DNA from: Eubacterium sp. 14-2
GTDB taxonomy: Bacteria; Bacillota; Clostridia; Lachnospirales; Lachnospiraceae
NCBI RefSeq assembly: GCF_000403845.2
Contig: NZ_KE159567.1
Location: 1,434,911-1,498,910 of the forward strand
DNA length: 64,000 nucleotides
Direction of reading: 5' to 3'
Made by a program: the position numbers and the translations under genes. Every line of letters starts with the position of its first letter. Position 1 is the stretch's first letter. Below are positions 3,646-53,170 of this stretch, piece by piece. Below the pieces are notes generated by a model, which did not search any database, had not been told where the DNA came from, and saw nothing but the letters and a program-made list of their open reading frames with translations.

Positions 3646-5028
3646 TTGCATAAAATTCAGATAAAGTATCTGGGACCTGTGAAAGAACTGGAACTGGAAG
3701 TAAAAGATTTTAACTTGCTTATTGGGGAACAGGCAACAGGGAAAAGTACCGTGGCAAAGGCAGTATATTTTTTCAGGATTATAAAAACCACGCTGGCAGA
3801 TTATCTTTGCCAGCTGTATGATACATCCCTTTACAATGGAAAAGATGCCAGCGGCGGATTTCATAAGGTTTTAAAAAGAGAACTGAAGTCAGTTCTGATT
3901 TCACTGTTTGGGTATGGCTGGGATTTGGATAAACGTCTGTATTTAAAGTATAAATATACAGATGTTATCTGGATTGAGGTAAAATTGAAAAAAGGAGATA
4001 AAAAATTTTTTAATGTTATTTATTCTCCCAAACTGAATTATGAGATAGAGAAATTAGAGAAAGAGGCGCTGGAGTTGTATCAGCAGAAGCAGGATACTAC
4101 CATTATCAGCCTTGCCTATGCCAGTAAGGAACGATTGCGGAATTACGATAATTTCAGATACAGTGTGAATCAGATATTTGATGATCATAAAGAAACCTAT
4201 TATATACCGGCAGGGCGCAGTATGATTGCATTGCTGGTCAATAACCGTTCCCTGATTGAAAATGAAAATCTGGATTTAATAACCAGACAGTTCATGCAGA
4301 TAATCGATAATATTCATGGAGCATTTTCAGATGGAATTCGAAATGTTCATAAGCGCTATCCGGATGGACAGCGAGAATTTGATGTTGAAAAAACATCAGA
4401 AATGATAATTTCTGATTTAAAAGGAGATTATCAGTATTCGGAAGGAAAAGAATATATTGTTGTACAGGGCGGTGAATCTCCGGACGAAAGGATACCCATC
4501 AATTTTGCATCGTCCGGGCAGCAGGAAGTGTTATGGTTGTTGAATCAACTGTACATTCTGATGTTAAAAAAAGAAGAAGCATTTGTAATTATTGAAGAAC
4601 CTGAGGCTCATTTATATCCGTCTCTGCAGAATAAACTGATGGAATTTATTGCTTATTTTGCAAATATCAACCACAGTTCTGTTTTGATTACGACGCACAG
4701 CCCCTATATTCTGACTTCGGTGAATACACTTTACTGTGCGGGAAAGACTATTCAGGAATTTCCTGGTCTGTCAAAGAAAGTATACGAGATAACGGGAAAC
4801 AGATGTGAGATTTTTCCGGAAAAAGTTACGGCTTTTAAGATAAACAGAGTTTCAGAAGTTCAGAATCTGATAAATGAGGAATTTGAAGAAATAAACACGG
4901 AAATGATTGATGAAATTTCAGATAGTGTAAATGAAAAATATACAGAATTGTTTTATCTTGTATCGGAAGCAGACAGGGGGAGAGAAGGCACGGATGGGAA
5001 AAAAGAAGGAGATGAAGAGGAGCAGTGA
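3646..5028 (+). CDS. AAA/ABC-type ATPase of a putative two-gene defence module
   Basis: This 460-aa ATPase starts at TTG 3646, supported by AGGGAG upstream. Walker A is GEQATGKST (27-35); a YYIPAGRS segment follows (185-192), then an ABC-like signature SSGQQE (289-294), Walker B FVIIEEPEAHLYP (313-325), and an H-loop TTHSPYIL (His351). This architecture is shared by OLD/AAA_15-type ATPases in antiphage systems such as PARIS (AriA) and Septu (PtuA), where a partner nuclease is the effector. The C-terminal 80 residues are acidic and helical. The end overlaps the next gene by 35 nt, so the two are coupled. Defence function is inferred from architecture and pairing. Confidence 0.85.
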   Translation: MHKIQIKYLGPVKELELEVKDFNLLIGEQATGKSTVAKAVYFFRIIKTTLADYLCQLYDTSLYNGKDASGGFHKVLKRELKSVLISLFGYGWDLDKRLYLKYKYTDVIWIEVKLKKGDKKFFNVIYSPKLNYEIEKLEKEALELYQQKQDTTIISLAYASKERLRNYDNFRYSVNQIFDDHKETYYIPAGRSMIALLVNNRSLIENENLDLITRQFMQIIDNIHGAFSDGIRNVHKRYPDGQREFDVEKTSEMIISDLKGDYQYSEGKEYIVVQGGESPDERIPINFASSGQQEVLWLLNQLYILMLKKEEAFVIIEEPEAHLYPSLQNKLMEFIAYFANINHSSVLITTHSPYILTSVNTLYCAGKTIQEFPGLSKKVYEITGNRCEIFPEKVTAFKINRVSEVQNLINEEFEEINTEMIDEISDSVNEKYTELFYLVSEADRGREGTDGKKEGDEEEQ

Positions 5029-5626
5029 GAAGATTTCCTGTACACTGCCGTTTGGAACATATAATGGAGAATTTACGCTTCTTAAAAAAGGAGAGAAAAG
5101 AAATATCAGAGATATGAAATCCTGTAAAAATGCTTTCATACCGATTAAGGTTAATGATGAAAGCGTATATGTTGCAGAACCGGACGGAAAACTGATTCCC
5201 AATATGGTAAATCAGCAGAAATGCGATTTTCTGATATACTGCCAGAATCAGCCGCAGACCTGTTTTATTGAACTCAAGGGAGAAAATATTTCAGCAAAAA
5301 AAGAATATAATCCCTATGACCAGATTATTGATACCATAAAATTTTTGAAGAACGAAAAAAGATTGAACAATCTGGTCAGCGGTGATGTGGAAAAACATGC
5401 ATTTATCGTTTCTCCGGGGAGACAGAAAATTCCAAGGGGAGTAGAGACGGGTGAAAGGCAGCTCTGGAAAAATCTTGTACAGCCACAAAAGAAATCCAGG
5501 ACGACCTGGGATTTGGTCCATTATGTAAAAGTGACAAAATCGGGAAGATACAGCAATAAGAAACAGATTATCTGTTCGCCTGAATCACCGATACAGATTC
5601 CATTTAACAATCAGGAAGGCAAATAA
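4994..5626 (+). CDS. Putative PD-(D/E)xK nuclease partner of the ATPase
   Basis: This 210-aa protein starts at ATG 4994 after a purine-rich GGGGGAGAGAAGG, inside the end of the ATPase gene. The core has D78 (QQKCDFLIYC) followed by a strand and E93-L-K95 (CFIELKGENIS). The D...ExK spacing and hydrophobic context match PD-(D/E)xK nucleases. The next helix (NPYDQIIDTIKFLK) holds a Gln (Q110) as in many members. The N-terminus has a Cys/Phe-rich strand and the C-terminus is basic. It is not the TOPRIM/DUF4435 (AriB) or HNH (PtuB) effector of known pairs. Likely a DNA or RNA nuclease controlled by the ATPase. Activity is inferred from the motif. Confidence 0.6.
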   Translation: MGKKKEMKRSSEKISCTLPFGTYNGEFTLLKKGEKRNIRDMKSCKNAFIPIKVNDESVYVAEPDGKLIPNMVNQQKCDFLIYCQNQPQTCFIELKGENISAKKEYNPYDQIIDTIKFLKNEKRLNNLVSGDVEKHAFIVSPGRQKIPRGVETGERQLWKNLVQPQKKSRTTWDLVHYVKVTKSGRYSNKKQIICSPESPIQIPFNNQEGK

Positions 5627-5655
5627 AAAATCTGTTTCAGATTTTACGGCGAAAA

Positions 5656-5701
5656 CTCCGGCTGCTGAAAACACAAAAATGTTTCAGCAGCCGGAGCCTT
5701 T
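5656..5701. terminator. Bidirectional rho-independent terminator
   Basis: CTCCGGCTGCTGAAAAC (5656 on) pairs with GTTTCAGCAGCCGGAG (5681-5696), followed by CCTTTT. The stem of about 16 bp lies between the converging nuclease gene and the secreted Cys/His repeat protein. A-rich sequence on the other side lets it serve both strands. Confidence 0.8.
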
Positions 5702-5723: not shown

Positions 5724-6236
5724 CTATGCAACAGAATGTATTCTCCCGTTTGCATGAGTCGTTTTATGCACTTTACAGTATTTTTTGCAGCTCTTGAGAT
5801 TCTTATGAATCGTTTTGTGATAAGAGCAGTAGTGGCTGCAGCTTTTGAGGTTCTTATGAACCGATTTGTGGTAAGAACAGTAATGGTTGCAGCTCTTGAG
5901 GTTCTTATGAACCGTTTTGTGATAAGAACAGTAATGGTTGCAGCTCTTGAGGTTATTGTGAACCGTTTTGTGATAAGAGCAGTAGTGATTACAGTTCTTA
6001 AGGTTGCTGTGGATTTCGTGATGGTAGGAGCAGTAATTCTGGCAGCTTTCCTGACTGTTATGATTCGTATGATGGTAAGGGCAGTTGAAGCCGGAATTCG
6101 TTCCTCCGCCATTGTAGTTGTGATGTCCTCCGCCATGATGTCCGTGGGCCATTACAGGCATGGAAAAACTGCCCGTGAATATTACAGCAGCCATTACAGC
6201 GGCCAGGGCTTTTTTGCAGTTCTTAAAAAAATTCAT
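5724..6236 (-). CDS. Secreted Cys/His tandem-repeat protein (probable metal binder)
   Basis: This 170-aa protein starts at ATG 6236; GGGAGGA lies 7 nt upstream. A signal peptide (KKALAAVMAAVIFTGSFSMPVMA, cut near residue 30) is followed by a Gly/His linker (HGHHGGGHH) and seven 17-residue units from residue 52 to the end. The consensus is C-x2-H-x3-H-x5-C-x2-Y, for example CSYHKTVHKNLKSCNHY. Six units keep all Cys and His positions; the last is degenerate. The even 2 Cys + 2 His per unit suggests zinc or copper binding, or disulfide-linked repeats outside the cell. No sortase signal or membrane anchor is seen. Function unknown. Confidence 0.8.
   Translation of the reverse strand: MNFFKNCKKALAAVMAAVIFTGSFSMPVMAHGHHGGGHHNYNGGGTNSGFNCPYHHTNHNSQESCQNYCSYHHEIHSNLKNCNHYCSYHKTVHNNLKSCNHYCSYHKTVHKNLKSCNHYCSYHKSVHKNLKSCSHYCSYHKTIHKNLKSCKKYCKVHKTTHANGRIHSVA
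5727..6083 (-). repeat. 51-nt tandem repeats inside the Cys/His protein gene
   Basis: Seven in-frame 51-nt units encode the 17-residue repeats. The middle four are nearly identical at DNA level (TGAGGTTCTTATGAACCG recurs on the plus strand), which points to recent unit duplication and likely copy-number variation between strains. Confidence 0.85.
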
Positions 6237-6324
6237 TTCCAATTCCTCCCAATATTATAATCTTTTACTTATAATACGACGCGGCGGCCGAAATCCTTGC
6301 AAAATTTTCACAAAATGGAAATAA

Positions 6325-7422
6325 TTATTTTCCCAGATAGTAATGTCCATATGCATCAGCAGCCTTGATTGCTGCACATACGGTTTCCGGAGTAACTTCA
6401 AAAGGCATGTTATGTAAGGTGTCAGTTTCGGCACACGCAGCGGCAGCTACTGCCATAATTTTTTCGTCCGTTATTTCTTCCACACCTAATTCCTTCAGGG
6501 TAACAGGGAGTCCCAGATCAATACACCAGGTAATGATGTCTTCCAGTTCATCTGCAGGAATATTTTCCAGTACAAGCTGAGTGATGGTTCCAAACGCTAC
6601 TTTTTCACCGTGATACATGTGATGGCATTCTTCCAGCACAGTCAGTCCGTTGTGAATGGCATGTGCCCCTGCCAGACCGCCGCTTTCAAAACCGATACCG
6701 CTTAAGAGAGTGTTTGCTTCGATGACTTTTTCCACTGCGGGAGTACATGCGCCTGCCTCCAGGGCCAGTCTGGCCTTAATGCCTTCTTCCATCAGTGTGT
6801 TGAAACACAGTTCAGCCAGAGACATTGCGGCAGAGGTTGCAAGACCTCCGGCACAGGTGGCTGCTCCGTTGTTTTTGCAGGCTCTTGCCTCAAAATAAGT
6901 AGCCAGTGCGTCTCCCATACCGGACACAGTCAGACGAACCGGAGATTTTGTGACAATTTCTGTATCCATCAGAACCAGATTTGGATTGGCCGGAAGGAAC
7001 AGGTATTCTTCAAACACTCCTTCGTCCGTATAAATAACAGACAGTGCGCTGCAGGGAGCGTCAGTGGAGGCGATGGTAGGGCAGATCAGAACCGGAAGTG
7101 ATTTATGGTAAGCCACAGCCTTGGCAGTATCCAGAATCTTGCCGCCGCCGATACCGATAATCATATCGCACTGATTGTCCTCCGCAACTTTAATTAATCG
7201 ATTGATTTCTGTTTTGCTGCATTCCCCGTTAAAATAGTCGAAGACAGTGCTGATTTCCTTTCCCGCAAAGCTGCCTTCCACAATATCCCCAATTCTTTTA
7301 AAGCCTGATGCTGTAATCAGAATCAGCGCTTTTTTGCCGTATTTTTCAGCGTATTCCCCCAGTTTTTTCATTTCCCCTGCGCCCTGTACATATTTGTTCG
7401 GGCTGATTAAAATGTTTGCCAT
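6325..7422 (-). CDS. gldA: Glycerol dehydrogenase
   Basis: The 365-aa NAD-dependent, zinc-dependent enzyme oxidises glycerol to dihydroxyacetone in the cytoplasm (iron-containing/GldA alcohol dehydrogenase family). The N-terminal half has the NAD-binding GIGGGKILDTAKAVA motif and PTIASTDAPCS. Metal ligands are seen as Asp in SGMGDALATYFEA and two His, in GAHAIHNGL and MYHGEKVAFG. Length is typical for GldA. AAAGGAGGT lies before ATG 7422. It has a strong own promoter (7475-7503) and is monocistronic, divergent from ibrA. Confidence 0.95.
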   Translation of the reverse strand: MANILISPNKYVQGAGEMKKLGEYAEKYGKKALILITASGFKRIGDIVEGSFAGKEISTVFDYFNGECSKTEINRLIKVAEDNQCDMIIGIGGGKILDTAKAVAYHKSLPVLICPTIASTDAPCSALSVIYTDEGVFEEYLFLPANPNLVLMDTEIVTKSPVRLTVSGMGDALATYFEARACKNNGAATCAGGLATSAAMSLAELCFNTLMEEGIKARLALEAGACTPAVEKVIEANTLLSGIGFESGGLAGAHAIHNGLTVLEECHHMYHGEKVAFGTITQLVLENIPADELEDIITWCIDLGLPVTLKELGVEEITDEKIMAVAAAACAETDTLHNMPFEVTPETVCAAIKAADAYGHYYLGK

Positions 7423-52906: not shown

Positions 52907-52932
52907 AAAATCACCGCTCGCGAGTGATTTTT
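52907..52932 (+). terminator. Terminator after yebC
   Basis: AAAAAATCAC and GTGATTTTTT pair around a short CGCTCGCGA loop, right at the yebC stop. The T-run is the descending part of the stem. The sequence AGTGATTTTTTACGAGG is itself reused in the downstream repeats. Confidence 0.7.
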
Positions 52933-53170
52933 TACGAGGACCTGCTTACAGAAGCGATAGCTTCTGTAAGGGGGACGCCGCCTGGGAGTGATTTTTTACG
53001 AGGACCTGCTTACAGAAGCGACAGCTTCTGTAAGGGGGACGTTGCCTGGGAATGATACTTTACGAGGACCTGCTTACAGAAGCGACAGCTTCTGTAAGGG
53101 GGACGCCGGTTTCTGTAAAAAGGATATGATATGCTGGTATTTTTTTACAGGGACCTGTTTCCGGAAGCAA
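52922..53170. repeat. Three 64-nt direct repeats each with an 11-bp hairpin, plus a degenerate fourth
   Basis: Units with GTGATTTTTTACGAGGACCT at the front (the third front diverged) have their ACGAGGACCTG at 52932, 52996 and 53060 (64 nt apart) and then CTTACAGAAGC-GAYA-GCTTCTGTAAG, an exact 11-bp hairpin with a 4-nt loop, then GGGGGACG. A fourth, decayed front part follows at about 53137-53170 (ACAGGGACCTGTTTCCGGAAGC). The hairpin loop varies only at one base (GATA/GACA), so compensatory conservation of structure is implied. No protein-coding frame is supported here. The unit may be a mobile/REP-like element, an RNA or a DNA structure. Confidence 0.8.

Follow-up and report, generated by a model that had tools for sequence, protein, structure and literature searches.

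What does a small secreted protein built of tandem Cys/His units do for the cell that exports it, and what controls its gene? We asked this of a repeat gene from Eubacterium sp. 14-2 (Lachnospiraceae), using the 64,000-nucleotide stretch of DNA in which it lies (the window), the genome to which it belongs, and related genomes. The features of the gene and its flanks are as follows.

5724..6236, minus strand: coding sequence of a 170-aa secreted CHHC-repeat protein (ATG at 6236, stop at 5724-5726)
6147..6236, minus strand: predicted signal peptide, residues 1-30 (cleavage after PVMA, a V-x-A site placed by eye; the border is alike in relatives)
6120..6146, minus strand: HGHHGGGHH, the predicted mature start, with His at positions 1 and 3 (read from the sequence)
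6033..6083, minus strand: unit 1, CPYHHTNHNSQESCQNY
5982..6032, minus strand: unit 2, CSYHHEIHSNLKNCNHY
5931..5981, minus strand: unit 3
5880..5930, minus strand: unit 4
5829..5879, minus strand: unit 5
5778..5828, minus strand: unit 6
5736..5777, minus strand: unit 7, CKVHKTTHANGRIH, the closing unit, C-x2-H-x3-H-x5-H
6245-6250, minus strand: putative ribosome-binding site GGGAGG (by eye)
6272..6301, minus strand: putative ECF-type promoter TGCAAGGATTTCGGCCGCCGCGTCGTATTA (sequence shared with a sigma operon)
5652..5700, minus strand: terminator-like hairpin, its long stem GC-rich and followed by a brief run of U (from folding energy)

The hairpin at 5652-5700 has a folding energy of -35.6 kcal/mol (z -5.57), which none of 200 shuffled sequences equaled, and it was absent from the list returned by a consensus scan. 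The upstream gene on the same strand (6325-7422) presumably encodes a glycerol-dehydrogenase-like protein, a name given by reading the sequence. The genes downstream of the repeat gene lie on the opposite strand; two overlapping plus-strand genes at 3646-5626 encode a 460-aa protein and a 231-aa partner. From reading its sequence, we take the 460-aa protein to have the look of an ABC/AAA-ATPase, possibly forming an OLD/RecF-like pair with its partner.

The 170-aa open reading frame, with its strict 17-residue register, bore out the preliminary description of an exported protein with a His/Gly linker and seven units of 17 residues. The same description assigned two Cys and two His to each unit, which holds for units 1-6 (C-x2-H-x3-H-x5-C-x2-Y) and fails for unit 7, where there are one Cys and three His. 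Tandem Repeats Finder independently detected the 51-bp period, as an array spanning 5785-6005 with 4.3 copies and a score of 330. High DNA identity between units, also claimed, was found among units 3-6 (0.80-0.94) and not for units 1, 2, and 7: units 1 and 2 compared with each other and with units 3-6 gave 0.57-0.71, and unit 7 gave 0.31-0.41 against the remaining units, values that are partly a result of its early end. The suggestion that copy number changes rapidly found no support among the closest relatives, which are all alike, with seven units in the window's genome, G018, and G028. Across species, the number of strict units ranges from 2 to 13 in the 22 proteins parsed, the window's included (116 strict units, 92 of them internal); in L050, additional units interrupted by insertions escaped the strict count of 10. 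The window protein is 88% and 87% identical to copies in two species of the genus, and comparison with the G028 copy gave dN/dS values of 0.064/0.78 (NG86) and 0.079/0.31 (YN00), so that selection on the gene looks purifying.

Several positions of the unit are fixed. Tyr17 is invariant in the 92 internal units, and the search pattern made no demand for it. The fourth residue of the closing unit is His in all 22 proteins, including the window's, and a Gly stands between its third and fourth ligand positions in 22 of 22. All 22 also carry H-x-H at the predicted mature start, where the pattern used to place the border itself required His; we take this amino end to resemble the copper/nickel-binding ATCUN motif. 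In L053 and L054 a C-H-H-C unit paired with a C-H-H-H unit occurs twice, so this pair looks like the minimal module, of which the long forms would repeat the first half. Neighboring Cys within the array are spaced C-x3-C and C-x12-C. The number of Cys in the mature chain is odd in 13 of the 22 proteins (13 Cys in the window's) and even in nine; Cys in the linker or additional Cys shift the parity, as do the two closing units of L053 and L054.

Searches for known families agreed with the earlier statement that the repeat is unlike any named one: nothing exceeded the cut-off in Pfam or NCBIfam, and a three-unit structural model had no Foldseek match in the PDB. The best Pfam match of the whole protein was DUF7140 (17.1 bits against a cut-off of 27), the sole NCBIfam match scored 6.2 against a cut-off of 400, and the best E-value among 17 two-unit segments searched against Pfam was 0.021. 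We rejected the matches to DUF7140, BAR_3, and zf-FCS as sub-threshold or weak. Profile A4 matched a single PDB sequence, zinc finger protein 473 (E 1.7). AlphaFold2 modeled the last three units with a mean pLDDT of 82 and a pTM of 0.56, from 61 register-matched rows that are overlapping segments of nine proteins and hence not independent; in the model every unit has two short strands of two residues, and the first two units each add a helical turn of three residues. A full-length model from nine rows reached a pLDDT of 37. Neither the repeat motif nor the His-tailed regulator considered below was described in the titles and abstract beginnings covered by our literature search.

A protein search placed the repeat gene in 13 of 61 genomes, all within its own genus, and an alignment search found it in 14 of the genus's 29 genomes. 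In wider samples, counting the window's genome each time, a two-unit profile matched 6 of 397 genomes at family level, 3 of 392 at order level, and 2 of 398 at phylum level; the second phylum match is weak (E 6.7e-4), contains a stop codon, and had no such frame at its locus. A scan of named organisms gave 17 loci, including those of Petralouisia muris, Lachnospiraceae bacteria 3-1 and A2, and Hominisplanchenecus murintestinalis, with names or titles indicating a mouse association for L044, L051, and L055. A mobile or phage origin was rejected, as no relative was confirmed in viral contigs and none was found in phages or plasmids.

The control of the gene can be approached through its upstream sequence. 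The site at 6272-6301 reads TGCAAGGATT-N13-CGTATTA, which we take to be a promoter of ECF type, and a similar promoter precedes 20 of the 22 parsed proteins (for L050 it was seen in a longer upstream sequence). The genes of the other two (L053 5872-6237, L054 5863-6222) have no such site upstream and no sigma gene in the flanks examined. A house-keeping-like promoter stands in place of the ECF-type site in both. In the 4 Mb genome of the window the exact pattern occurs twice, before the repeat gene and at one other place, and a reversed-pattern control occurs nowhere; allowing up to three mismatches added nine sites, all at three mismatches, against five for the reversed control. Relaxing the pattern across the 29 genus genomes produced 22 sites, spread over 20 of them (11 before the repeat gene, 9 before a sigma operon, 2 elsewhere), and its reversed control gave 12, so chance matches must be reckoned with for so loose a pattern. 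No promoter site occurred in the six genomes that yielded neither repeat gene nor regulator (G006, G007, G009, G010, G011, G026). G014, G017, and G019 have the regulator and lack the exact site; G014 and G019 have variant sites, and the regulator locus of G017 is cut by a contig end. A scan for the house-keeping consensus returned three matches over both strands, against 1.4 expected, with one minus-strand match near the gene start: a weak sigma-70-like TGGACA-17-AATTAT at 6349-6321, on the strand of the repeat gene, with 9 of 12 positions matched. We prefer the conserved site at 6272-6301 as the promoter; this match may also serve, and transcription may read through from the upstream gene.

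The second exact site (G000:C1:84164-84193) lies upstream of a three-gene operon. Its first gene encodes an exported protein of 228 aa that has three DxNGDGxCD loops and the end GHHGGGHHGGRHW. The second encodes P0003 (160 aa), which matches PF04542 (40.2 bits, cut-off 24), PF08281 (47.9 bits, cut-off 25.7), and, as a member of the ECF superfamily, TIGR02937 (72.6 bits, cut-off 42.9); with Sigma70 regions 2 and 4 and an adjoining anti-sigma gene, P0003 has what is expected of an ECF sigma factor. The third product, P0004, contains the RsgI_M domain (PF23750, 85.2 bits against 25.3, E 7.7e-24) and has a His-rich end, CGHDGGSHHSQKGHHNGKGHHNVN. RsgI_M was its sole Pfam match up to E 1, with the N-terminal sigma-binding domain of RsgI not detected. 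Because the two genes are adjacent, the partner of P0004 is probably the ECF sigma factor P0003 rather than SigI. By the promoter shared with this operon, the repeat gene would be a member of the same ECF regulon; the preliminary description made no mention of such control. A BioY-like gene starts about 80 bases past the operon on the same strand and could be co-transcribed with it; within the flanks examined, a bioY gene comes next in 4 of the 21 anti-sigma loci. We take BioY to be a biotin transporter, and the genes that come after the operon in the window's genome (L071 7239-9578), named by reading the sequence, to be bioY-, bioB-, and bioD-like.

We examined 22 loci and parsed promoter and payload in 21, the payload being the candidate richest in Cys and His as chosen by a script. 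In 17 of the 21 loci the payload differs from the window repeat, and in G001, G004, G019, and G027 the site found stands before the window-type repeat itself. The 17 separate payloads comprise ten with DxNGDGxC loops, three with 18-residue C-x-H-x4-H-x3-C units, and four with C-x6-H-x3-C; all 17 have 9-19 His, 4-14 Cys, and an end containing HH. Four payload proteins of the genus had no Pfam match up to E 0.1. The DxNGDGxCD loops of the ten look more like calcium sites, which counts against a role as metal sponge. The 18-residue form is a second C-H-H-C repeat (L104, L083, and L108, in G002, G005, and G012; for example CGHTDGNHPTDCPNWDGN), and in these three genomes the window repeat was not found.

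Among the 20 anti-sigma tails parsed from 21 loci, the final 40 residues contain 5-8 His in 19, the exception being L108, which runs off its contig. Eight other RsgI-like proteins of the same genomes, one of which runs off its locus, have 0-1 His there, and a ninth was unparsed. Anti-sigma relatives at E <= 1e-20 occur in 43 of 397 sampled family genomes (37 of 334 genera). We scripted 28 of the 30 best matches (L142-L169, some genes repeating earlier loci) and parsed 27; among these best matches 21 of 27 have at least four His in the last 50 residues, L159-L162, L165, and L166 have 0-3, and L169 is cut by a contig end. By reading, about 16 of the 27 loci (L142-L168) have a small secreted Cys/His or DxDxDGxCD protein adjoining the anti-sigma gene. 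Such proteins neighbor both ECF sigma and RsgI_M-type anti-sigma genes in many of the family's genomes.

Repeat gene and regulator are also associated by position and by occurrence. A sigma gene, an anti-sigma gene, or both adjoin the repeat gene in 7 of the 17 named loci (L051, with anti-sigma only, and L052, L055, L056, L057, L058, L059), with both sigma and anti-sigma genes coming after it on its own strand in L052 and L057. Outside the genus, five of seven further loci are linked (L123, L124, L125, L127, and L140, the last with the same protein as L055) and L126 and L141 are not. Within the genus, G004 and G019 have a sigma gene, an anti-sigma gene, or both beside the repeat gene, and G008 has a weak match there to an anti-sigma end (E 2.6e-4). 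The linked proteins have two strict units each and those of nine genus members with the sigma operon elsewhere have seven or more, a contrast with few independent events behind it. The 29 genus genomes divide into 14 with repeat and regulator, none with the repeat only, nine with the regulator only, and six with neither (Fisher p 0.011, with G005 and G008 assigned on partial evidence); a strict tally of 13, 1, 8, and 7 gives p 0.022, and in both cases the species are not independent. The co-occurrence within the genus is modest.

From these patterns of residues and promoters, we infer metal binding by the repeat protein, the nature of the inducing signal, and the dependence on P0003. As a whole, we think it fairly probable that the protein acts outside the cell as a sponge or buffer for metal and that a dedicated metal-sensing ECF switch controls it. 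Metal would bind the outer His tail of the anti-sigma factor P0004, which would then free the sigma factor, perhaps after cleavage in the membrane as in RsgI systems, and the freed sigma factor would transcribe its own operon and the repeat gene. Each unit would coordinate about one ion of a transition metal, with two Cys and two His as ligands, and the closing unit would coordinate one with one Cys and three His; the secreted chains would lower the free metal around the cell. Zinc and copper are the candidate metals, with zinc placed first. The link to metal rests on residue composition, because the genes seen at both exact promoter sites of the genome include no recognized transporter or regulator of metal.

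More tentatively, and with chances that we put slightly below even, the same parts may form an extracellular metal-homeostasis system of Lachnospiraceae. Here a His-tailed RsgI_M sensor and an ECF sigma factor would have secreted multi-site Cys/His metal buffers as their main output, and the array would be a new metal-binding repeat, lengthened from two to as many as 13 strict units in some lineages and encoded apart from the sigma locus. If this is true, some gut bacteria answer outside metal by secreting chelators rather than by pumping, a shared ("public") metal buffer is added to the gut, and the His-tailed RsgI_M anti-sigma factor is a new type of metal sensor. An uncharacterized sigma/anti-sigma group would gain a concrete, testable signal and output, and a repeat of tunable length would be simple material for work on metal sites.

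The same observations can be read in other ways. The protein could be a scavenger of the zincophore kind, made when metal is short and returning it to the cell; secretion and many sites per chain would suit such a role, zinc is withheld by hosts in the gut, and the absence of metal might equally be what a His-tailed anti-sigma factor reports. We nevertheless regard this as unlikely. No cell-wall anchor is visible in the sequence of the repeat protein, and with no recognized metal-uptake gene behind either exact promoter site of the genome, sequestration is a better fit than uptake; scavenging, the role named in the preliminary description, is thus the less well supported. A little less likely still is a part in envelope or acid stress, in which the His tail and the payloads would sense or buffer protons or coat the cell and metal would be incidental. 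The pH of the gut is close to that at which His side chains titrate, envelope stress is what many ECF systems respond to, and the payload types are diverse except for their His and Cys. The His tails could sense pH, which counts against the metal reading. However, proton buffering needs neither Cys nor the fixed Cys/His spacing that is kept across 2 to 13 strict units.

That the array is a structural repeat linked by disulfides, with its His as surface residues, seems to us improbable. Extracellular Cys-rich repeats are often disulfide-bonded, and both the two Cys per internal unit and the nine mature chains with an even Cys number agree with this; the 13 chains with an odd number, the window's among them, agree less well, and the motif His are conserved together with the Cys. 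A metal site is also the likelier of the two because a disulfide forbids the exchange of Cys for His seen in every closing unit. In addition, searches of the genome for the oxidase families DSBA and VKOR gave no match at E 0.001 (controls matched in 8 and 3 of 14 genomes), so the thiols of the repeat protein may stay reduced. This result, together with control shared with His/Cys-rich secreted proteins and a His-tailed anti-sigma factor, makes metal binding likelier. Lastly, we give very little credence to a carrier of haem or another cofactor, bound through C-x2-H or paired His. Its one point of support is a weak phmmer match to a multihaem cytochrome chain in the PDB (E 0.037, residues 9-63), which falls mostly outside the repeats, on the signal peptide, the linker, and unit 1 as far as its twelfth residue, and the protein is without the haem motif C-x2-C-H; we therefore rejected this match as a sign of a haem protein.

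The favored reading, a secreted metal buffer under an ECF switch, has partial counterparts among known systems. The parts are ordinary (an ECF pair and exported proteins rich in His and Cys), and their combination was not found in the literature searched. Like the window protein, SilE and PcoE are exported and His-rich. SilE is disordered without metal, folds on Ag+, and is proposed as a first-line metal sponge outside the cytoplasm (PMC5008109). It binds through His and Met, belongs to a silver-efflux operon, and acts in the periplasm. In contrast, the window protein has tandem C-H-H-C units, ECF-type control, and no metal pump at the two exact promoter sites. The membrane complex CnrYXH of Cupriavidus senses outside metal and releases an ECF sigma factor (PMC7689651). 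It has a separate sensor protein, CnrX, and an efflux pump as output. Here, instead, the RsgI_M anti-sigma factor itself bears the His tail, the outputs are secreted Cys/His proteins, and metal would trigger the release. CorE and CorE2 of Myxococcus are metal-responsive ECF sigma factors (PMC8999054). CorE senses through its own Cys-rich C-terminal domain. P0003, at 160 aa and consisting of regions 2 and 4, has no such extension.

Carbohydrate-binding modules are known at the outer ends of RsgI proteins. P0004 shares the central RsgI_M domain with RsgI of the clostridial RsgI/SigI systems but differs in its probable ECF partner in place of SigI, its His-rich outer tail, and the N-terminal RsgI domain, which was not detected. 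RsgI signals through cleavage within its membrane helix (PMC12203970). With metallothioneins and classical zinc fingers the window array has in common short repeated units and Cys and His as presumed ligands, but the window protein is exported. Metallothioneins are defined by CxC or CC clusters. The window array has neither and so falls outside that definition, and with no Pfam match above cut-off, a best PDB profile match at E 1.7, and no Foldseek match for the three-unit model it likewise lacks the detectable similarity expected of a classical zinc finger.

Elsewhere in the window, at 52922-53108, there is a second tandem array, with a 64-bp unit in 2.9 copies (93% matches) that holds the inverted repeat CAGAAGC...GCTTCTG.
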